Assembly: GCF_028868675.1 (NCBI RefSeq)
Contig: NZ_JAGWUA010000016.1
Coordinates: 1 to 44,812 of the forward strand
Length of the DNA stretch: 44,812 nt
Source: Bradyrhizobium sp.
GTDB taxonomy: Bacteria; Pseudomonadota; Alphaproteobacteria; Rhizobiales; Xanthobacteraceae
Direction of reading: 5' to 3'
Below the pieces are notes generated by a model. That model was not told the DNA's origin. It saw only the letters and a program-made list of their open reading frames with translations, and ran no database searches. Numbering within the stretch: position 1 is the first letter of the stretch; each line of letters begins with the position of its first letter. The position numbers were made by a program, and so were the translations under genes. Positions 11,236 to 44,812 of this stretch are shown here, piece after piece.

Positions 11236-12105
11236 TTATCGACGCCGCAGCACCATGTCCTTCGCCGCGATCAGGCCGCCGCCGGCGATCAGGATCGCGG
11301 CGATGGCGATGTTGGCGCTGGCCTTGGCGAATCCGGCCGCGATCAGGAATCCGGTCGAGAGCAGCGGCGTCGCGTAAGAGGCTGCGCCCAGCACGCGGAT
11401 GTCGCCCCGCTTCATGCCGATGTCCCAGGCGTAGAAGGCCGCGCCGACCGGACCGATCCCGAGCGCGACCACGGCAAGCCATTGCAGCGCGGTCTGCGGC
11501 CACACCGTCGTCTCGACGAGGACGTGCGTCAGCGCGGCGAGCGCCGCGGTGGCGAGGCAGAATCCGGCGACCGCATCGGTCGGCACCGCCTTCAGCCGCC
11601 GTGACAGCACCGAATAGGTCGCCCAGACGAAAGCGGCGACGAAGGCCGCGACGAGACCGGGCACCTGGCCCGGCGCGAAGTCGCTCGTATTGCCGGCGAA
11701 CAGCAGCACCGTGCCGACGAGCCCGAGCAGCGCGCCGATGACGTGATGGACTGCGAGCCGCTCACCCGGAAGGAACGAGGAGAACAGCACGATCAGGAGC
11801 GGCCAGAGATAGTTGAGCAGACCCGCTTCGGCAGGAGGGGCGAAACGCAGCGCGAGAAAGTAGAGCGCGTGATAGCCGAACAGGCCGCCGATACCGACGA
11901 TCCAGACCACGCGCGGCTGGCGCAGGCTCCGCATCGCCTCGATTCGCCCGATCCAGGTGAGCAGGCCGACCAGGCCGCCGATCGCAAACGTCATCGCCGC
12001 GAGCTGGAACGCAGGGATGGTGCCGGTCGCCACCGTCATCACCGCGAGCAGCGACCACATCAGGATTGCGGTCAATCCGATCAGCGTCGCGGTGCGGGGA
12101 GTCAT
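11236..12105 (-). CDS. EamA/DMT-family membrane exporter
   Basis: A 289-residue protein with ten hydrophobic segments in two EamA repeats (about 5-140 and 150-285), as in drug/metabolite exporters of the RhaT/YdcZ kind. Hallmarks are a LLNYLWPLLIVLFSSFLPGER segment at the end of repeat one and VALGIGPVGAAFYAWDIGMKRGD in repeat two. I start at ATG 12105. An in-frame ATG at 12150 would add 15 residues encoded entirely by a palindromic repeat and is not credible. Exported substrate is unknown. The stop lies 24 nt from the end of the convergent cupin gene. Confidence 0.9.
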   Translation of the reverse strand: MTPRTATLIGLTAILMWSLLAVMTVATGTIPAFQLAAMTFAIGGLVGLLTWIGRIEAMRSLRQPRVVWIVGIGGLFGYHALYFLALRFAPPAEAGLLNYLWPLLIVLFSSFLPGERLAVHHVIGALLGLVGTVLLFAGNTSDFAPGQVPGLVAAFVAAFVWATYSVLSRRLKAVPTDAVAGFCLATAALAALTHVLVETTVWPQTALQWLAVVALGIGPVGAAFYAWDIGMKRGDIRVLGAASYATPLLSTGFLIAAGFAKASANIAIAAILIAGGGLIAAKDMVLRRR

Positions 12106-17119: not shown

Positions 17120-18529
17120 ATGACCAAGCTGCGATATCTCGCGATGGCCACACTCGGCGCCGGTTTCCTTGCCGGCGCCCTCTGGTCGATCGAACGCGCG
17201 TCCACTCACCCGCATCTGACCGATGCCGCGGCGGCCACCGACAAGGTCCCGCTGTACTACCGCGATCCCGCCGGCGCGCCGCGGTGGTCCGCCGTCCCGA
17301 AGAAGGATGCGCAGGGGCGCGACTATCTGCCGGTCTATGACGACGGGGCAGCCGACCCGCCGAAGGCGTCGAGGCAAGCGCAGGGCCCGCGAAAAATCCT
17401 CTACTACCGCAATCCGATGGGACTGCCGGACACCTCCCCGGTGCCCAAGAAGGATTCGATGGGAATGGACTATGTCCCCGTCTACGAGGGCGAGGATGGC
17501 GACGACGGCACGGTCAGGCTGTCGCCGGGCAAGATCCAGCGCACCGGCGTGCAATCGGCACCCGTCGAACGCCGCGCCATCCGCCTCGCCGTGCGCGCGC
17601 CCGGCACGATCCAGCTCGACGAGCGCCGCGTCTCGGTGATCGCGATGCGCGCCGAGAGCTTCGTGCAGAAGGTCGCCGACGTGACCACCGGCACGCGCGT
17701 CAAGGCCGGACAGCCGCTGATGGAAATCTACAGCGCCGCCATTGCCTCGGCCGCTGCGGAATATCTCGCCACGATCAATTCGAAGACCACCGGGGGCAAC
17801 GAGGCCTATGGCCGGGGCTCGCGCCAGCGGCTGATCAACCTCGCGGTGCCGGAGCCGTTCATCGCCGCAATGGAGAGGAGCGGCGTCGCGCCGGTGACGG
17901 TGCAATGGTCGGCGCCGCGCGACGGCATCGTGCTCGAACGCAACGCCATCGAGGGCATGCGCGCCAACCCCGGCGACGTGCTGTTCAAGATCGCCGACAT
18001 CTCGCTGGTCTGGGCGCTCGTCGACGTCGCCGAGCGCGATCTCGGCGCCATCGCGGTGGGTCAGCCCGTCACGATCCGCGCCCGCAGCTTTCCGGCCCGC
18101 AGCTTTACCGGGACGATCGCCGTGATCTACCCACAGGTGAACCGCGAGACGCGGACGGCGCGGCTGCGGATCGAGCTCGCCAACCCGGATTCGGCGTTGC
18201 TGCCGGACATGTATGTCGACGCCGAGATCGACACCGCCGATTCCGCTCCGGTGCTGGCGGTGCCGGACAGCTCGGTGCTCGACACCGGCAGTCGGCAGGC
18301 GGTGCTGCTCGACAAAGGCGAGGGCCGTTACGAGCCGCGCGGGGTCAAGCTCGGCCGCCGCGGCGGCGGCTATGTCGAGGTGCGCGACGGCCTCGCCGAG
18401 GGTGACGCCGTGGTCACCTCCGCCAACTTCCTGATCGACGCCGAAAGCAACCTCAAGGCCGCACTGAAGAGCTTTGAGGGCGCAGGCGCGGCGGGCTCGC
18501 CGACCCCCGGAACGGGAGAGCTCAAATGA
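17120..18529 (+). CDS. cusB: CusB-type RND efflux periplasmic adaptor with two heavy-metal-binding repeats
   Basis: A 469-residue membrane-fusion protein. After an N-terminal anchor/signal (about 6-25) come two tandem heavy-metal-binding repeats: 45-74 (YYRDPAGAPRWSAVPKKD) and 94-123 (YYRNPMGLPDTSPVPKKD). The second keeps its Met residues (M100, M114, M116); the first has Ala and other residues at the same places. The adaptor body follows: ERRAIRLAVRAPGTIQLDER, VTTGTRVKAGQPLMEIYS (lipoyl-like), the hairpin, and beta-barrel GQPVTIRARSFPARSFTG. It links CusA to an outer-membrane channel and passes Cu(I)/Ag(I). No channel gene is in the window. Its stop overlaps the cusA start (ATGA at 18526-18529). 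Confidence 0.93.
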   Translation: MTKLRYLAMATLGAGFLAGALWSIERASTHPHLTDAAAATDKVPLYYRDPAGAPRWSAVPKKDAQGRDYLPVYDDGAADPPKASRQAQGPRKILYYRNPMGLPDTSPVPKKDSMGMDYVPVYEGEDGDDGTVRLSPGKIQRTGVQSAPVERRAIRLAVRAPGTIQLDERRVSVIAMRAESFVQKVADVTTGTRVKAGQPLMEIYSAAIASAAAEYLATINSKTTGGNEAYGRGSRQRLINLAVPEPFIAAMERSGVAPVTVQWSAPRDGIVLERNAIEGMRANPGDVLFKIADISLVWALVDVAERDLGAIAVGQPVTIRARSFPARSFTGTIAVIYPQVNRETRTARLRIELANPDSALLPDMYVDAEIDTADSAPVLAVPDSSVLDTGSRQAVLLDKGEGRYEPRGVKLGRRGGGYVEVRDGLAEGDAVVTSANFLIDAESNLKAALKSFEGAGAAGSPTPGTGELK

Positions 18530-21500
18530 TCGCCCGCCTGATCGCCTGGTCGGCCCGCAACCTGCTGCTGGTGCTGTTCGGCACCGGCTTCGCGGCCGCA
18601 GCCGGCCTCTATGCCCTCCTCCACCTTCCGCTCGACGCCATCCCCGACCTCTCCGACACCCAGGTGATCGTCTACACCGAATATCCCGGCCAGGCGCCGC
18701 AGGTGATCGAGGACCAGGTCACCTATCCCCTGACGACGGCAATGCTGACGGTGCCGAAGTCGAAGGTCGTGCGCGGCTTCTCGTTTTTCGGCGCGTCCTT
18801 CGTCTACGTCATCTTCGAGGACGGCACCGACATCTACTGGGCGCGCTCGCGCGTGATGGAATTCCTCAACGGCGCGGCTTCGCGACTGCCCTCCGGCGTC
18901 ACTCCGACCATCGGCCCCGATGCCACCGGCGTCGGCTGGGTCTACCAATATGCGGTGATCTCGAAGGAGCTGAACCTCGCCGACACGCGCACGCTGCAGG
19001 ACTGGACGCTGAAATTCGCCCTCGCCAGGGCCGAAGGCGTCGCCGAGGTCGCCAGCATCGGCGGCTTCGTCAAGCAGTACAACGTGATCCTCGACCCGCA
19101 GCGGATGCGCGACCGCGGCATCACCATGCAGAAGATCCGCGACGCGATCCGCGCCAGCAATGCCGACGTCGGCGGCCGCACGGTCGAGCTCTCGGAGTTC
19201 GAATACGTCATCCGCGGCAAGGGCTACATCAAGGACATCAACGACCTCGGCAACGTGGTGCTGAAGGCCGCCAATGGCACGCCGGTGCTGCTACGCGACG
19301 TCGCCCGGCTCGAGCTCGGCCCGGACGAGCGGCGCGGCATCGCCGAGCTGAACGGCGAGGGCGAGGTCGCAAGCGGCATCGTGCTGCAGCGGTTCGGCGT
19401 CAACGCGCTCGACGTCATCGACAACGTCAAGAAGCGCTTCAAGGAGATTGCCCGCGGCCTGCCGAAATCGGTCGAGATCGTTCCGGTCTACGACCGCTCC
19501 AACCTGATCCATGCCGCGATCGACACGCTGAAGCGCACGTTGACGGAAGAGAGCATCGTGGTGGCGCTGGTCTGCGTCGTGTTCCTGCTGCACGTGCGCA
19601 GCGCGCTGGTCGCGATCCTGATGCTGCCGGTCGGCGTTCTCATGGCCTTCGGCGCCATGAAGCTGCTCGGGCTGGGCTCCAACATCATGAGTCTGGGCGG
19701 CATCGCGATCGCGATCGGCGCCATGGTCGACGCGGCGATCGTCATGATCGAGAACGCGCACAAGCATCTCGAAAGGGCCGCTCCAGATCAGCCGCGCGTC
19801 AAGATCCTGATCGACGCAGCAGCCGAGGTCGGACCGGCGCTGTTCTTCAGCCTGCTGATCATCACCGTGTCGTTCATGCCGATCTTCACGCTGGAAGCGC
19901 AGGAGGGGCGGCTGTTCAGCCCGCTCGCTTTCACCAAGACCTTTGCCATGGCCGCCGCGGCCCTCTTGTCCGTGACGCTGGTGCCGGCGCTGATGGTGAT
20001 CTTCGTGCGCGGCAGGATCGTTCCCGAGCACAGGAACCCCATCAACCGCTTCCTGATCTGGATCTACCGGCCCGTCATCCGCGGCGTGCTGCGTGCGAAG
20101 ATCGCGGTGATCCTGCTCGCGCTCGCCGTGCTCGCGGTTTCGGTCTGGCCCGCGCGCCAGCTCGGCAGCGAATTCATGCCGGCGCTGAACGAGGGCACGC
20201 TGCTGTACATGCCGACCACGCTGCCGGGCATCTCCGTGACCAAGGCCGCCGAGCTGATGCAGACCCAGGACCGCATCATCCGCTCGTTTCCCGAGGTCGC
20301 ATCCGTCTACGGCAAGGCCGGGCGGGCGACCACCGCAACCGACCCGGCGCCGACCGAGATGTTCGAGACCATCGTCAATCTCAAGCCGAAGGACGAGTGG
20401 CGCGCCGGCGTGACGATCGACGGCCTGATCGCGGAGATGGACAAGGCGCTGCAGTTCCCCGGCGTCGCCAACGCCTGGACCATGCCGATCAAGGCCCGCA
20501 TCGACATGCTGTCGACCGGCATCCGCACGCCGGTCGGCGTCAAGGTGATGGGCACCGATCTCGCCGAGATCGACCGGCTGGCGCGGCAGATCGAGCGCGT
20601 GCTCAAGACCGTTCCCGGCACGTCCTCGGCCTATGCCGAGCGCGGCATAGGCGGCTACTATCTCGAGATCACGCCGGACCGCGAGGCGCTCGCCCGCTAC
20701 GGCCTTCTGATCCAGGACGTCCAGGACACCATCGCGGCCGCGCTCGGCGGCCAGACGGTGACGACCACCGTCGAAGGCCGGCAGCGCTTCACCGTCAACA
20801 TGCGCTATCCGCGCGACCTGCGCGACAATCCCAAGGCGATCGCCGGCGACATCCTGGTGCCGATGCCAGCGGGCGGCGCGGTGCCGCTCGGCGAGGTCGC
20901 GAAAGTCGAGCCGGCGCGCGGGCCGACGTCGATCCGCACCGAGAACGGGCAGCTTGCGACCTACATCTATGTCGACATCCGCGACCGCGACATCGGCGGC
21001 TACGTCGCCGACGCGCAGGCCGCAGTGAGCAAGGACGTGCCGTTTCCCGCCGGCAGCTATGTGGTCTGGAGCGGCCAGTACGAATATCTGCAGCGTGCCG
21101 CCGCGCGGCTGAAGGTCGTGGTGCCGGTCACGCTGACCATCATCTTCCTGCTGCTCTATCTGAACTTCAGATCGCTGACCGAGACCCTGATCGTGATGCT
21201 GTCGCTGCCCTTCGCCCTCGTCGGCGGGCTCTGGATGATGTGGTGGCTCGACTTCAATCTGTCGGTCGCTGTTGCGGTCGGCTTCATCGCGCTCGCGGGC
21301 GTGGCGGCGGAGACCGGCGTGGTGATGCTGATCTATCTCGACCACGCGCTGGTCGCGACGAGGGCAAAGTGCGGCGCCGAAGGCCGTCCGCTGACGCGCG
21401 CCGATCTCCATGGCGCCATCATGGAAGGCGCAGCCGAACGGGTGCGGCCGAAGATGATGACGGTCGTCGCCATCATGGCCGGCCTGCTGCCGATCATGTG

Positions 21501-21699
21501 GAGCACCGGTACGGGCTCGGAAATCATGCAGCGGATCGCCGTGCCGATGATCGGCGGCATGATCTCCTCGACCCTGCTGACGCTGATCGTGATCCCCGCA
21601 ATCTTCGGCCTGGTGCGGGGACGCGGGCTGGCGCGGAGCGATGGCGATGCGAGCAAGGTGACGGGCGGCCGCAGCGGCGATATCCCGGCTGCGGCGTGA
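18526..21699 (+). CDS. cusA: CusA-type Cu(I)/Ag(I) RND efflux pump
   Basis: A 1057-residue heavy-metal RND pump with twelve membrane segments and two large periplasmic loops. The three Met residues that bind Cu(I)/Ag(I) in E. coli CusA (573, 623, 672) are present as M562 (LLYMP), M612 (PAPTEM) and M661 (RIDML), with identical spacing of 50 and 49. This argues for monovalent copper or silver rather than Co/Zn/Cd. The proton-relay segment SLGGIAIAIGAMVDAAIVMIENAHKH is intact. The pump moves metal from periplasm and cytosol outward with CusB and a TolC-like channel. It is translationally coupled to cusB by ATGA overlap. Confidence 0.95.
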   Translation: MIARLIAWSARNLLLVLFGTGFAAAAGLYALLHLPLDAIPDLSDTQVIVYTEYPGQAPQVIEDQVTYPLTTAMLTVPKSKVVRGFSFFGASFVYVIFEDGTDIYWARSRVMEFLNGAASRLPSGVTPTIGPDATGVGWVYQYAVISKELNLADTRTLQDWTLKFALARAEGVAEVASIGGFVKQYNVILDPQRMRDRGITMQKIRDAIRASNADVGGRTVELSEFEYVIRGKGYIKDINDLGNVVLKAANGTPVLLRDVARLELGPDERRGIAELNGEGEVASGIVLQRFGVNALDVIDNVKKRFKEIARGLPKSVEIVPVYDRSNLIHAAIDTLKRTLTEESIVVALVCVVFLLHVRSALVAILMLPVGVLMAFGAMKLLGLGSNIMSLGGIAIAIGAMVDAAIVMIENAHKHLERAAPDQPRVKILIDAAAEVGPALFFSLLIITVSFMPIFTLEAQEGRLFSPLAFTKTFAMAAAALLSVTLVPALMVIFVRGRIVPEHRNPINRFLIWIYRPVIRGVLRAKIAVILLALAVLAVSVWPARQLGSEFMPALNEGTLLYMPTTLPGISVTKAAELMQTQDRIIRSFPEVASVYGKAGRATTATDPAPTEMFETIVNLKPKDEWRAGVTIDGLIAEMDKALQFPGVANAWTMPIKARIDMLSTGIRTPVGVKVMGTDLAEIDRLARQIERVLKTVPGTSSAYAERGIGGYYLEITPDREALARYGLLIQDVQDTIAAALGGQTVTTTVEGRQRFTVNMRYPRDLRDNPKAIAGDILVPMPAGGAVPLGEVAKVEPARGPTSIRTENGQLATYIYVDIRDRDIGGYVADAQAAVSKDVPFPAGSYVVWSGQYEYLQRAAARLKVVVPVTLTIIFLLLYLNFRSLTETLIVMLSLPFALVGGLWMMWWLDFNLSVAVAVGFIALAGVAAETGVVMLIYLDHALVATRAKCGAEGRPLTRADLHGAIMEGAAERVRPKMMTVVAIMAGLLPIMWSTGTGSEIMQRIAVPMIGGMISSTLLTLIVIPAIFGLVRGRGLARSDGDASKVTGGRSGDIPAAA

Positions 21700-28624: not shown

Positions 28625-29605
28625 ATGTCGCGATGCCGAGTTGGAACGAGCGTACTCCGAGCCAGCGTACTTGCCGCGATCGGCGCGCTGCTGTCGGTGG
28701 CCGCCCAGGCCCAGGACTATCCCGCGAAACCGATCACGCTGATCGTGCCGTGGCCGGCCGGCGGCTCGACCGACATCTCGATGCGCGCGATCGCCGATTC
28801 GGCCGCGAAGGTGCTGGGCCAGCCGATCGTGATCGACAACAAGGCCGGCGGCGGCGGCACGGTCGGGCCGGCCACCATGGCCGCGGCCGCAAAACCCGAC
28901 GGCTACACCATCGCGCAGATCCCGATCACCGTATTCCGCCTGCCCTTGATGCAAGAGGTGTCGTGGGATCCGGCCAAGGACTTCACCTACATCGTCCATC
29001 TCACCGGCTACACCTTCGGCGTCACCACCAGCGCCGAAGGGCCGTTCAAGAGCTGGAAGGACGTGGTCGACTACGCCAAGCAGAATCCGGGCAAGGTGAC
29101 CTACGCGACGCCGGGCACCGGCACCTCGCTGCATATCGGCATGGAGCAGATCGCGGCGATGTCCGGCATCAAGTTGACGCAGGTGCCGTTCAAGGGCGGC
29201 GCGGAGACCAACGCCGCGGTGCTGGGACAGCACACCATGCTGCAGGCGGATTCGACCGGTTGGCGGCCACTGGTCGACGCCGGCAAGCTGCGGCTGCTGA
29301 TGGTGTGGACCGCGGCGCGGTCGCCGAACTATCCGGACGTGCCGACGCTGAAGGAGCTCGGCTATGCCATGGTCTACGATTCTCCGTTCGGCGTCGCCGG
29401 GCCGAAGGGCATGGATCCCAAGATCGTCGCCAAGCTGCATGACGCCTTCAAGAAGGCGATCGAGGATCCTGCCGTGATCACCACGCTCGCCAAATACGAC
29501 ATGGTGCCGAACTACAGGAACACCGAGGACTACAGGAAGTTCGTGGCCGAGACGACGGAATCCGAGCGCAAGGTCATCGACAGCCTCGGGCTCGCGAAGA
29601 AGTAG
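28625..29605 (+). CDS. tctC: TctC-type tripartite tricarboxylate transporter binding protein
   Basis: A 326-residue Bug/TctC periplasmic binding protein with a signal peptide ending near AQA-QDYP (about 29). Family hallmarks are YPAKPITLIVPWPAGGSTD, IDNKAGGGGTVG, VTYATPGTGTSLHIGMEQ and VPFKGGAETNAAVLG. It captures a carboxylate (citrate-like, dicarboxylate or aromatic acid) and delivers it to TctA/TctB. Ligand cannot be read from the sequence. GGAGG lies 6 nt before ATG 28625. The frame is open further upstream, but those residues show no family similarity. A 138-nt gap with palindromic repeats separates it from tctB. Confidence 0.93.
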   Translation: MSRCRVGTSVLRASVLAAIGALLSVAAQAQDYPAKPITLIVPWPAGGSTDISMRAIADSAAKVLGQPIVIDNKAGGGGTVGPATMAAAAKPDGYTIAQIPITVFRLPLMQEVSWDPAKDFTYIVHLTGYTFGVTTSAEGPFKSWKDVVDYAKQNPGKVTYATPGTGTSLHIGMEQIAAMSGIKLTQVPFKGGAETNAAVLGQHTMLQADSTGWRPLVDAGKLRLLMVWTAARSPNYPDVPTLKELGYAMVYDSPFGVAGPKGMDPKIVAKLHDAFKKAIEDPAVITTLAKYDMVPNYRNTEDYRKFVAETTESERKVIDSLGLAKK

Positions 29606-29613
29606 AGCACTCG

Positions 29614-29728
29614 TATCCCGGACGCGGCGCGGCATGAAATGACGCGACGCAGAGCCGGGATCTACACGCCGCCCGCCATGGGCCCCGGAACTGCAGCGCA
29701 GCACTTCGCGCTGCGCAGCATCCGGGGC
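29614..29728. repeat. Palindromic repeats in the tctC-tctB gap
   Basis: Two imperfect palindromes. The first, about 29615-29661, has outer arms ATCCCGG and CCGGGAT. The second, about 29681-29728, has outer arms GCCCCGGA and TCCGGGGC enclosing AGCGCAGC/GCGCTGCGC. Placed right after the binding-protein stop, they probably stabilise its mRNA, as REP elements do. The composition matches intergenic repeats common in Bradyrhizobium. Confidence 0.65.
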
Positions 29729-29743
29729 ACGAGAGAGACGCCA

Positions 29744-40186: not shown

Positions 40187-41794
40187 ATGGAAACGCGATT
40201 TCAGACCTTCCTCATCCTGCTCGGCGTGCTCGCGGGAACCGCGCTGGTGGCGCGGCGCCTCAACGTCGCGCCGGCCATTCTCCTGATGCTGGCCGGTGTG
40301 GGGCTCGCTTTCGTGCCGGGCATGCCGCCGGTCGAACTGCCGCCGGAACTGGTGCTGCTGCTGGTGCTGCCGCCGCTGATCTATTCGGCGAGCGTCGCCA
40401 TGAGCTGGCGCGAGTTCAGGAACAATCTGCGCCCGATCGTGCTGCTCGCGGTCGGCTGCGTGATCTTCACCGCGGCCATGGTGGCGGCCACCACGCACTA
40501 TCTGATCGGCATGCCCTGGACCGTCGGCTTCCTGCTGGGCGCCATCGTTGCGCCGCCCGACGTGGTGGCGCCGCTGGCGATCGCGCGCAAGCTGCACATG
40601 CCGCGCCGCATCCTCGTCGTGCTCGAGGGCGAAGGCCTCGCCAACGACGCCACTGCGCTGATCCTCTACCGCTTCGCGCTGGCCGCGATCATGACCGGCA
40701 GCTTCTCGCTGCCGATGGCCGCCGGCGAATTCCTGGCCATCATCGCCGGCGAGATCGCCTTCGGCATCGGCGTCGGCTGGATCAGCCTGCGCGGGCGCAA
40801 ATGGGCGCGCGACCCGCAGGTCGAGATCACGCTGTCGCTGATCACGCCCTATATCGCCTACTGGCTGCCCGAGCATTTTGGCGGCTCCGGCGTGATCGCC
40901 ACCGTCGCCTGCGGACTCTATGTGAGCTGGAACGGGCCCTTGTGGATCTCGTCGGCGACGCGCCTGCAGGGCATGTTCTTCTGGGACCTCGTCATCTACA
41001 TGATCGAGGGCATCCTGTTCCTGCTCACCGGCTTCCAGATGCGGGCGCTGTACGAGAAATCGAAGGCATTTCCGCTCGACGACATCCTGATTGCGACCGG
41101 CGTCGTGGTGGCGATCGTCGTCATCGCCCGTTTCGCCTGGCTCTATCCCGCGACCTACCTGCCGCGCGTGTTCAGCAAGAGCCTGCGCGAGCGCGATCCC
41201 TCGCCGCCCTGGCAATGGGTGTTCACGCTCGCCTTCACCGGGGTACGCGGCGCGGTGTCGCTCGCGACGGCGCTGGCGCTGCCCTTCGCGCTGCAGGGCG
41301 GCGAGAGCTTCCCCTATCGCGACCTGATCCTGTTCGTCTCCTTCGGCGTCATCTTCATCACGCTCGTCGGCGTCGGCCTCGGCCTGCCCACGGTGGTGCG
41401 CTGGCTCGGCGTGGCGGACGCCGGCCGCCACGAGCACGTCGCCGAGCACGCGGCGGAGATTCTTGCACGCCGCCAGGCGCTCGATGCGGCGCTGAGATCG
41501 CTCGACGCGATCGTCGAGACCGAGGACGTCTCGGACGAGGTGGTCGGCCTGCTACGGGCGCGGCACGAGATCCGCACCAATCAATTGCCCGATTCGCTCG
41601 ACCCTGCCAGGCACGACGTCTCCGCCATGGGCACGACGCTGACGCGCGAATTGATCGCGGCCGAGCGCAAGTTCATCCACGCACTGCTGCGCGACGGCCA
41701 GATCACCGACGAGACCCGCCGCCGGATCGAGCGCGATCTCGACCTCGAGGAAGCCAGTCTCGCCAACCGCGAGTACCGCAGCGTGCCGCTGTGA
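40187..41794 (+). CDS. CPA1-family Na+/H+ antiporter
   Basis: A 535-residue protein. The first about 405 residues contain about twelve membrane segments. The ion-binding EGLANDATALILYRFAL (Asn-Asp motif near residue 150) and WVFTLAFTGVRGAVSLATALALPF segments are typical of bacterial CPA1/NhaP-YjcE antiporters. A hydrophilic helical tail (about 415-535) is rich in Arg and Glu (LRSLDAIVETEDVSDEVVGLLRAR). It exchanges cytosolic Na+ or K+ for protons at the inner membrane for pH and salt homeostasis. It follows the NTF2-like gene by 36 nt. An intergenic palindromic repeat lies immediately downstream. Confidence 0.93.
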   Translation: METRFQTFLILLGVLAGTALVARRLNVAPAILLMLAGVGLAFVPGMPPVELPPELVLLLVLPPLIYSASVAMSWREFRNNLRPIVLLAVGCVIFTAAMVAATTHYLIGMPWTVGFLLGAIVAPPDVVAPLAIARKLHMPRRILVVLEGEGLANDATALILYRFALAAIMTGSFSLPMAAGEFLAIIAGEIAFGIGVGWISLRGRKWARDPQVEITLSLITPYIAYWLPEHFGGSGVIATVACGLYVSWNGPLWISSATRLQGMFFWDLVIYMIEGILFLLTGFQMRALYEKSKAFPLDDILIATGVVVAIVVIARFAWLYPATYLPRVFSKSLRERDPSPPWQWVFTLAFTGVRGAVSLATALALPFALQGGESFPYRDLILFVSFGVIFITLVGVGLGLPTVVRWLGVADAGRHEHVAEHAAEILARRQALDAALRSLDAIVETEDVSDEVVGLLRARHEIRTNQLPDSLDPARHDVSAMGTTLTRELIAAERKFIHALLRDGQITDETRRRIERDLDLEEASLANREYRSVPL

Positions 41795-41800
41795 AGATTG

Positions 41801-41930
41801 TCGTCCCGGGCAAGCGAAGCGCGCCCCGGGACCCACAACCACAGGAAGTTGTTGTTACGAACGCTGGAACGACGAGTCATCGCAACAACGAAAGCCTGTG
41901 GTTATAGGTCCCCGCGGTCGCGGGGACGAC
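41801..41930. repeat. Imperfect palindromic intergenic repeat
   Basis: Outer arms TCGTCCC (41801 on) and GGGGACGA (ending 41929-41930). Longer imperfect arms include GGGACCCACAACCACAGG on the left and its near-complement CCTGTGGTTATAGGTCCCC on the right. It lies between the antiporter and the Rieske gene, which converge. It is of the same general kind as the other dispersed repeats. Confidence 0.65.
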
Positions 41931-41952
41931 GGCGGTGGATGTGGCGGCCGCC

Positions 41953-43290
41953 CTACTCCGCCGCCGCAATCCGCGGTCGTCCGACGAAGCCCGCGACGTC
42001 GCCAAAGCGCTCCAGCATCACGGCGGGCAGATCCTTGGCCTTGTGGGTGACGCAGGCACCTGAGCGCACGGCATAGCGGTCCTGGCGAGCGACGTGCGGC
42101 GGCGCCTCGCCCTGCTGCAGCGCGCGGGCCAACTCCATCACGGTTTTCCGGAAGTGCATGATGCCGAGATCGGTCGGCCCGAGATGCTCTCGGGTGCGGT
42201 CGGCGATCGGGCCCTGGCTGTCCTGCACGGCCGCGTCCTGCTCGGAGACGCCCTTGATGCCGGTGTAGCTCTTCGTCTTCTGCAGCTTGCGGTCGATCAG
42301 GTAATCATTGCCCTTGTGGCGCAGCGGCACGTAATTGTCGTCGACCTCCGCGATCACGCCGTTGCCGCGATCGAAGGCGTCGCGCTCGGCCTGCGTCAGC
42401 GGCCGCTCCGGATTCCAGGCATAGGTGTAGATCCAGCAATTGATGTCGGTGACCGGCACAAAAGTCTGGCCAAAGATGTTCTCGCCGGGCATCGCGCTTG
42501 GCGCATAGGCGTGGAACGGCATCAGGAATTGCGCGATGCGCCAATAGATGCTGTCGCTGCCGGTGAGCCGGCCGCCGGCGATCGTCAGCCCGGCGTCGTG
42601 TGGATTGATTCTGATCACCGGACGCGGGTCCTCCGCGATCCAGCGCATGTGATCGGTCGACATCCGCGCAAGCGGATTCACGAAGTGCTTCTTGATGTCG
42701 AGGATCTCGTTCTCATCCTTCTCGAAGGCGAGATGGGCAAAGGTGAAATGCGCGGTGTCGATCGAGCCCTCCAGCGCCTGCACCCAGTTGCAGTCCTGCC
42801 ATTTCTTGCTGACGTAGCGATGCGAGGCCGGCAGCAGCGCCATCTCGAGATCGGGCAGTTCCGGCATCGCGTCGGCCGGACCCATATAGGCCCAGATCAT
42901 CTCGCCCCATTCGCGCGCGGGATAGGCCTTGATGCGGACGTGGTCCTTGGCGCAGAGGTCAGGATAGGAGGTCGGCATGTCGACGCAGGCGCCGTCGGTG
43001 TCGAACTTCCAGCCGTGATAGACGCAGCGGATGCCGCATTCCTCGTTGCGCCCGAGCCAGAGATTGGCGCCGCGGTGCGGGCAGTACTGATCGATGATTC
43101 CGACCACGCCACGGGTGTCGCGAAAGGCGAGCAGCTGCTCGCCGAGCACGGTGATCTTCTTCGGCTCGCCGTCGGGCTCGGGCAGCTCTTCCGAGAGAAG
43201 CACGGGTATCCAGAACCGGCGCAGCAGCTCGCCCATTCCCGTTCCCGCACCCGACTCGGTCAGGAACTCGTTGTCCTCGGCGCGGAGCAT
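41953..43290 (-). CDS. Rieske aromatic-ring-hydroxylating oxygenase, alpha subunit
   Basis: A 445-residue non-haem iron oxygenase. The Rieske [2Fe-2S] ligands are C70-P-H72 (CPHRGAN) and C89-V-Y-H92 (CVYHGWKF). The mononuclear iron site is D178, H181 and H186 (EGSIDTAHFTFAH). The length and the start MLRAEDNEFLTESGAGTGMGELLRRFWIPVLLS match the phthalate 4,5-dioxygenase / ring-hydroxylating group. It needs a separate reductase, and none is encoded here. Likely reaction: hydroxylation or O-demethylation of an aromatic acid (substrate unassigned). It is monocistronic in the window, with no nearby regulator. Confidence 0.93.
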   Translation of the reverse strand: MLRAEDNEFLTESGAGTGMGELLRRFWIPVLLSEELPEPDGEPKKITVLGEQLLAFRDTRGVVGIIDQYCPHRGANLWLGRNEECGIRCVYHGWKFDTDGACVDMPTSYPDLCAKDHVRIKAYPAREWGEMIWAYMGPADAMPELPDLEMALLPASHRYVSKKWQDCNWVQALEGSIDTAHFTFAHLAFEKDENEILDIKKHFVNPLARMSTDHMRWIAEDPRPVIRINPHDAGLTIAGGRLTGSDSIYWRIAQFLMPFHAYAPSAMPGENIFGQTFVPVTDINCWIYTYAWNPERPLTQAERDAFDRGNGVIAEVDDNYVPLRHKGNDYLIDRKLQKTKSYTGIKGVSEQDAAVQDSQGPIADRTREHLGPTDLGIMHFRKTVMELARALQQGEAPPHVARQDRYAVRSGACVTHKAKDLPAVMLERFGDVAGFVGRPRIAAAE

Positions 43291-43441: not shown

Positions 43442-44680
43442 CTACTCTGCCGCCGGTGCTTTCGCGCCCCGGCCGTAGCGCTGGTCGATGTAGTCGATCA
43501 CCAGCGCCTTGAAGTCCGCGGCGATCGTCGGCCCGCGCAGCGTGCGGAATTTCTTGCCGTCGACGAACACCGGCGCGGCCGGCGCTTCGCCGGTGCCCGG
43601 CAGGGAGATACCGATATTGGCGTGCTTGGATTCGCCGGGCCCGTTGACGATGCAGCCCATCACCGCGACGTTGAGCGCCTCGACGCCGGGATATTTCGTT
43701 TTCCAGGTCGGCATCTCCTCGCGGATGAAATCCTGGATCGAGCGCGCCAGTTCCTGGAACGTGGTCGAGGTGGTGCGGCCGCAGCCGGGGCAGGCCGCGA
43801 CCAGCGGCACGAAGGTGCGGAAGCCCATGGTCTGCAAGAGCTCCTGGCCGACCTGCACCTCGCGGGTGCGGTCACCGCCGGGCTCGGGCGTCAGCGAGAT
43901 GCGGATGGTGTCGCCGATGCCCTGCTGCAAGAGGATTCCGAGCGCGGCGCTGGAGGCGACGATGCCCTTCGAGCCCATGCCGGCTTCGGTCAGGCCCAGA
44001 TGCAGCGGATAGTCACAGCGACCGGCGAGATCGCGATATACGGCAATCAGATCCTGCACGCTCGAGACTTTGCACGAGAGCACGATGCGATCGCCTGGTA
44101 AGCCGAGTTGTTCGGCCAATGCCGCTGACTCTAAGGCAGAGAGAATCAATGCCTCGCGCATGACATCGCTGGCTGAGCCCGGATCGGCTTTCTGGGCGTT
44201 GTCATCCATCACGCGTGCCAGCACCGATTGATCCAGGCTGCCCCAGTTAACGCCAATGCGCACCGGCTTGTTGTAGCGGATCGCCAACTCGATCATCTGC
44301 GAGAACTGTTCATCCTTCTTCTTGCCGAAACCCACGTTACCCGGATTGATGCGGAACTTGGCTAGCGCTTCTGCGCAGGCCGGATAGTCGCTCAGCAGAC
44401 GATGGCCGTTGTAATGAAAGTCACCGATCAAGGGCACATCGCAATTCATACGATCAAGTTGCGCCCGAATCTCCGGAACAGCCGCAGCCGCTTCCGGCGT
44501 ATTGACCGTAATACGCACCAACTCTGCGCCGGCACGGGCAAGCTCCGCCACCTGAATGGCGGTCTTCAGCGCATCCGCCGTGTCGGTGTTGGTCATGGCC
44601 TGCACCACAATCGGCGCACCGCCGCCCATCGCAATATTGCCGACGGCTACGCTGCGGGTCAGGTGTCGCTGCAGAGTCAT
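43442..44680 (-). CDS. ispG: 4-hydroxy-3-methylbut-2-enyl diphosphate synthase, mosaic gene
   Basis: A 412-residue IspG (GcpE), the penultimate enzyme of the MEP isoprenoid pathway. It converts MEcPP to HMBPP with a [4Fe-4S] cluster held by Cys in ACPGCGR and [11 protein letters not shown]. The frame is intact. However, residues from about 217 on are Bradyrhizobium-like at about 68% GC, whereas residues 1 to about 215 are encoded at about 59% GC (hand count), contain TTA and CTA codons, and have beta/gamma-like wording ([46 protein letters not shown]). The N-terminus also lacks the longer extension I recall for Bradyrhizobium IspG. The switch falls around the highly conserved [12 protein letters not shown]. 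It is either a recombinant gene or an assembly chimera. Confidence 0.9.
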
Positions 44681-44693
44681 TTTATGACCAGTC

Positions 44694-44812
44694 TTAGCGC
44701 AGGGTCTGGCGGGCGACGTCGTCGCCGCTCAGCTTGTCGAGTTTGAGGGGCTCGTCACGCCAGCGCGCCTGCACCTGCTTGGCATTGCCGATCATGACGT
44801 CGAGCGGCGCGG
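44694..44812 (-). CDS. rodZ: RodZ-like protein, C-terminal end (partial)
   Basis: On the minus strand the last 38 codons read [17 protein letters not shown], then [20 protein letters not shown], and stop at TAA 44696-44694, 13 nt before the ispG start. The I-G-N-A...V...G/D-D-V-A-R-x-T-L pattern is the end of the RodZ C-terminal DUF4115 beta domain. RodZ is an inner-membrane protein that ties MreB to the elongation machinery. rodZ directly upstream of ispG is the standard order in gamma- and betaproteobacteria. Only this fragment is in the window, so the call depends on a short stretch plus context. Confidence 0.6.

Follow-up and report, generated by a model that had tools for sequence, protein, structure and literature searches.

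Is the ispG gene at the right-hand end of a contig, taken to be from Bradyrhizobium, a natural hybrid, or was it put together during sequencing? The window analysed here (44,812 nucleotides) is the whole of contig C311 of a draft genome (G000; 375 contigs totalling 5,043,413 bases, with a stated completeness of 99.96% and contamination of 0.69%), and the end of the window is the end of the contig. The gene (43442-44680, minus strand, 412 amino acids) consists of a 5' half of betaproteobacterial type, preceded by the tail of RodZ, and a 3' half of the type of its own genus. If real, it would be a cross-class recombinant within one enzyme.

Two lineages within one gene

The GC content was computed as 67.8% in 43501-44040 versus 58.8% in 44041-44640, in agreement with the fall from about 68 to about 59% across 44040/44041 in the original prediction. 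Codons 1-232 contain TTA twice and CTA once, as had been counted for the 5' half, and have a GC3 of 0.69; the remaining 181 codons (stop codon counted) contain neither and have a GC3 of 0.92.

The halves were compared separately with 29 loci of the same genus and with 80 loci obtained by scanning genome contigs (the best 80 of at least 594 relatives), which are mostly betaproteobacterial and in some cases gammaproteobacterial by title. Residues 1-221 are 65-75% identical (median 70.5%) to these best 80 of at least 594 loci versus 62-67% to the same-genus loci. For residues 239-412 the identity is 91-98% with the 29 same-genus loci and 62-78% with the other set (best 80 of at least 594). The closest relatives of the halves therefore differ, and both the beta/gamma-like character claimed for the 5' half and the Bradyrhizobium-like character of the 3' half were recovered. 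The same full-length gene, which was looked for in relatives, was not found: in the 5' half none of the 29 same-genus loci is closer than 67%. On these identities and the GC3 value, 43997-44680 (minus strand) was assigned as a foreign 5' part of betaproteobacterial type.

The mosaic protein belongs to IspG by its scores against TIGR00612 (395.4 bits, cut-off 280.25), PRK00366 (465.6, cut-off 345) and PF04551 (375, cut-off 32); it is matched below their cut-offs by two more IspG models, PRK00694 and PRK02048. The ispG copy on contig C291 of the same genome also matches TIGR00612 and PF04551. Both copies resemble the IspG/GcpE family [(E)-4-hydroxy-3-methylbut-2-enyl-diphosphate synthase]; the mosaic is unlike the family generally in that two classes of Proteobacteria have each supplied one of its parts.

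When identity is followed in steps of 40 bases, the lead passes from the 80 loci (best 80 of at least 594) to the 29 same-genus loci between 44001-44040 and 43921-43960. Site by site, the base at 43997 occurs in none of the 29 same-genus loci and in 57% of the best 80 of at least 594, and that at 43991 in 24% and 76%, respectively; both sites lean towards the beta type. Firmly genus-type sites begin at 43940. Since the base at 43951, between 43991 and 43940, is of beta type (absent from all 29 same-genus loci, present in 82% of the best 80 of at least 594), the junction is placed only to about 43941-43996 (minus strand), which comprises a conserved segment of 11 protein letters and the residues after it. 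The switch had been predicted in this conserved segment, given there as 12 protein letters, and falls there; the reading frame is preserved across it. Single sites past 44000 (for example 44000 and 44036) bear the commoner same-genus base, so that the class assignment rests on the whole stretch and not on each site.

The 132 bases beyond the ispG start codon hold the C-terminal tail of RodZ, in line with the rodZ noted upstream by the original prediction. A 38-residue frame at 44697-44812 (minus strand), cut by the contig end, matched RodZ_C (PF13464, E 2e-05, score 24.9, cut-off 23.9) and was assigned as the foreign 3' end of a betaproteobacterial-type rodZ. Its best matches among the 80 loci (best 80 of at least 594) lie upstream of betaproteobacterial ispG genes, at 35-46% identity. 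The rodZ-ispG order fits that of a betaproteobacterial locus from Propionivibrio (L053), in which a RodZ-like frame, ispG and a frame that we take, by recognition, to be HisS-like stand in succession. The foreign piece makes up the last 0.82-0.87 kb of C311 and runs off its end, with no return to same-genus sequence before the contig stops.

A close donor of the 5' half was not found by protein search, in which the top identity among the best 80 of at least 594 relatives was 75%. In 398 genomes of the phylum, 12 matches at E <= 1e-95 were obtained, including that in the genome itself, and the best other among the matches listed was 73% identical; in 399 genomes of the order of genome G384 there were five at E <= 1e-104, the best of those listed at 75%. 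Dechloromonas, Azonexus, Propionivibrio and similar records head the candidate donors among the matches listed. The best-scoring DNA match to the 5' part among the 80 loci (best 80 of at least 594) was again the Propionivibrio locus (74.7% over 592 columns). A plasmid search with 44041-44812 gave seven records, all alphaproteobacterial by name, at 68-71%.

Broad contamination of the draft genome by the donor was considered and rejected on the two genes checked: Propionivibrio RodZ matched the C311 tail alone (E 0.4), and HisS gave distant matches at 30-39%. With one query each, RodZ or HisS of betaproteobacterial kind was not found elsewhere in the genome.

The native ispG locus and its contig ends

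Sequence of ispG stands at two places in the genome: in the mosaic of C311, and on C291, where the gene is cut by the end of the contig. The C291 gene has a 5' part of the native kind, with 360 residues before the contig ends, a GC3 of 0.92 and neither TTA nor CTA; C291 is, region by region, at least 87% identical in DNA to relatives. The terminal 111 bases of C291 are exactly those of C311 at 43640-43750 (minus strand). Among 31 sequences (465 pairs), this stretch is free of differences in one pair, that of C291 and C311. Beyond it, 43442-43639 (minus strand) holds the native 3' end of ispG that is absent from C291 (DNA identity 88-92% in the best same-genus matches). Joined at the overlap, the two contigs give a complete IspG of 425 amino acids that is 87.2-94.3% identical (median 92.4%) to the 29 relatives; the mosaic is 76.0-80.0% identical to the same relatives.

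In all eight same-genus regions compared (19-20 kb each), a single ispG separates 5.6-11.6 kb of C291 from the antiporter and other genes that C311 carries. The antiporter gene, of the Na+/H+ type (40187-41794, plus strand; TIGR00831, 339.8 bits, cut-off 279.6), belongs to the native neighbourhood downstream of ispG and stands on the same side of it in 8/8 relatives. From the overlap and this joint neighbourhood, C291 and C311 are taken to be neighbouring contigs of one locus. When the genome itself was searched, no other ispG 3' end was obtained, and no further contig with a second C291-like or C311-like ispG region was found in the genome. A single ispG match was present in 33 of 35 same-genus genomes (one being a fragment of 108 residues and one lacking the first 39 residues); of the other two, one has two copies of equal score and one (80% complete) has none. 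The two equal-score copies lie on contig C16 of genome G011 at 516640-517860 and 942339-943559, about 425 kb apart on opposite strands, as a duplication or an assembly fault.

Between the overlap and the junction, C311 43751-43940 (minus strand) is of genus type; over its 190 bases it carries 15 differences from the native copy (11287-11476 of locus L003, on C291), none of which alters the protein. Seven further differences from C291 lie in 43941-43985; of these, one is non-synonymous (Ser for Thr). In the 406 pairs with at least 15 differences in this middle stretch, the median in the adjoining 111 bases was ten; the nearest relatives of the C311 middle differ from it at 12-15 of 235 bases. 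The 15 differences mean that C311 does not simply track the native sequence up to the junction, so that a single two-piece join is insufficient. They suggest that DNA of a second, related strain was present, or that there is a further false join. Judged from these comparisons, a three-part composite (native 3' end, middle of a related strain, betaproteobacterial 5' end) would be the most economical reading.

The other end of C311 was compared likewise: bases 1-83 are exactly bases 1-83 of contig C260. Joining the two gives one open frame across the overlap, the C260 part of which matches release factor 1 (PRK00591, 452 bits, cut-off 400; TIGR00019, 430 bits, cut-off 423); on this evidence C260 and C311 are neighbours, apparently split inside the release factor 1 gene. 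An exact overlap at the start of C291 was not found. A single fixed assembler k as the cause of the 111-base overlap was rejected, the overlaps being of 111 and 83 bases and the C291 start having none.

Origin of the composite gene

Because the native front half is found elsewhere in this draft genome, on C291, the mosaic is judged to be, very probably, a false join (an assembly or library-preparation chimera) at the end of C311 and not a natural hybrid; we base this on contig structure and comparison. As in an assembly chimera, the native continuation lies on another contig with an overlap, and the genes of both contigs flank one gene in relatives. Further points in favour are the exact overlap of adjoining contig ends that recurs between C311 and C260, the higher identity of the joined IspG to relatives, the single ispG match in 33 of 35 same-genus genomes and the failure of the one RodZ and one HisS query to reveal betaproteobacterial genes elsewhere in the genome. 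A recombinant allele in place of the native one is not what is found, since the native 5' half and its neighbours are on C291. The organism almost certainly has one ordinary ispG, its 5' half at the end of C291 and its 3' half on C311. Of the two causes that the original prediction had offered, the false join is thus favoured by the native 5' half and the 111-base overlap, and recombination is not supported.

In such a join, C311 would have been extended past the 111-base overlap by attachment of pieces of other ispG genes. The first would apparently be the middle of a related strain's gene, from a presumed second strain, and the last, attached through the short, highly conserved region of 11 protein letters, the ispG 5' half and rodZ tail of an unsampled betaproteobacterium. 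The joining step may have been an assembler path, a chimeric read or an amplification chimera, and presumably no molecule bearing the junction exists in the cell. Counted against a false join were the 15 differences in 190 bases, the unequal overlaps (111 and 83), the lack of a donor match above 75% among the matches listed and the reported contamination of 0.69. A further point is that the mosaic has an open frame and scores above the Pfam GcpE cut-off and those of two NCBIfam IspG models.

Natural mosaic genes formed by homologous recombination switch lineage inside a conserved segment and keep the frame. The C311 gene is like them in both respects, its product is accepted by the IspG models and the related-strain middle could belong to a recombination tract, all of which would suit a real event, in the strain or part of its population, by which a betaproteobacterial rodZ tail and ispG 5' half replaced the native 5' half to give a working hybrid. 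It is unlike them in that this assembly also contains the native 5' half and its neighbours, which lead to the one ispG 3' end found, and in that the foreign stretch, inside which the contig stops, shows no switch back to the genus type; moreover, the arrangement is seen in 0 of 29 same-genus loci. We consider such recombination very unlikely. In a narrower form, which would be highly unlikely, cross-class recombination in the conserved segment, by way of an intermediate from the same genus, gave a functional hybrid IspG in part of the population, and both alleles were sequenced.

The 15 differences adjoining the overlap could be read as a sign of two real genes: C311 would carry an acquired mosaic, and C291 the native gene, for which the assembly gave no separate 3' end. 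The genes on the ispG side of C311, however, flank the single native ispG of all eight relatives, opposite those of C291; the 111 bases are free of differences in this pair only, as expected of one sequence; and the own-genome search gave no second 3' end. Two ispG genes are thus extremely improbable. The same differences, all silent, match in number those between genomes of the genus (compare the 12-15 of 235 in the nearest relatives), and C291 and C311 might accordingly come from two related strains binned together, C311's alone being relevant and the mosaic a false join or real recombinant there; the 111-base match would then be a chance identity. Against this stand the identity over those 111 bases, found in 1 of 465 pairs, the low contamination figure and the single C291-like and C311-like ispG regions, and we give a mixture of this kind hardly any probability.

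The favoured false join resembles the interspecies chimeric contigs of draft and metagenome assemblies. A review states that k-mers common to several genomes can yield chimeric contigs (PMC7299287). As in such contigs, sequences of two organisms meet here within conserved sequence that both share, near the end of a contig, and the native gene continues on a different one. The present case is unlike them in that the joined genes come from different classes, so that the shared stretch is short, and in that the two seem to be separated by a third piece, of the same genus. No article on such a mosaic was found among the titles and opening lines of abstracts listed. A false ispG of this kind is an annotation hazard and not biology: with its open frame and scores over the cut-offs of the Pfam GcpE and two NCBIfam IspG models it passes ordinary annotation, and it could be taken for cross-class recombination in an isoprenoid-pathway gene or upset a core-gene tree. 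Such cases can be settled quickly by seeking the native half on another contig, exact overlaps of contig ends and the neighbourhood in relatives.

The remainder of the contig

Scanning the window for Rfam families and tRNAs gave no match. A plasmid search with 20000-43300 gave Bradyrhizobium records as the best matches (84.9-85.8% over 7% of the query, in one heavy-metal efflux gene), which is the named support for the presumed genus; Pseudosulfitobacter is the name with the largest number of the 119 records. A CusA/CzcA-type heavy metal efflux pump is encoded at 18526-21699 (TIGR00914, 1221 bits), the last 1.6 kb of which is 84.9-85.8% identical to pumps on Bradyrhizobium plasmids.

Adjoining ispG at 41953-43290 is a Rieske oxygenase-like gene (PF00355; LigXa_C, PF19301), which has a DNA match beside ispG in two of the eight relatives' regions (L040 and L042), no such match being seen in the other six. 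Repeats of about 120-140 bases with 71-76% similarity to one another are scattered between genes, at 29601-29737 and 41799-41935 of the window and at 5549-5686 of L003 (C291), and also in the ispG regions L035, L036, L037, L040 and L041 of relatives; some of them match in both orientations and are therefore palindromic.
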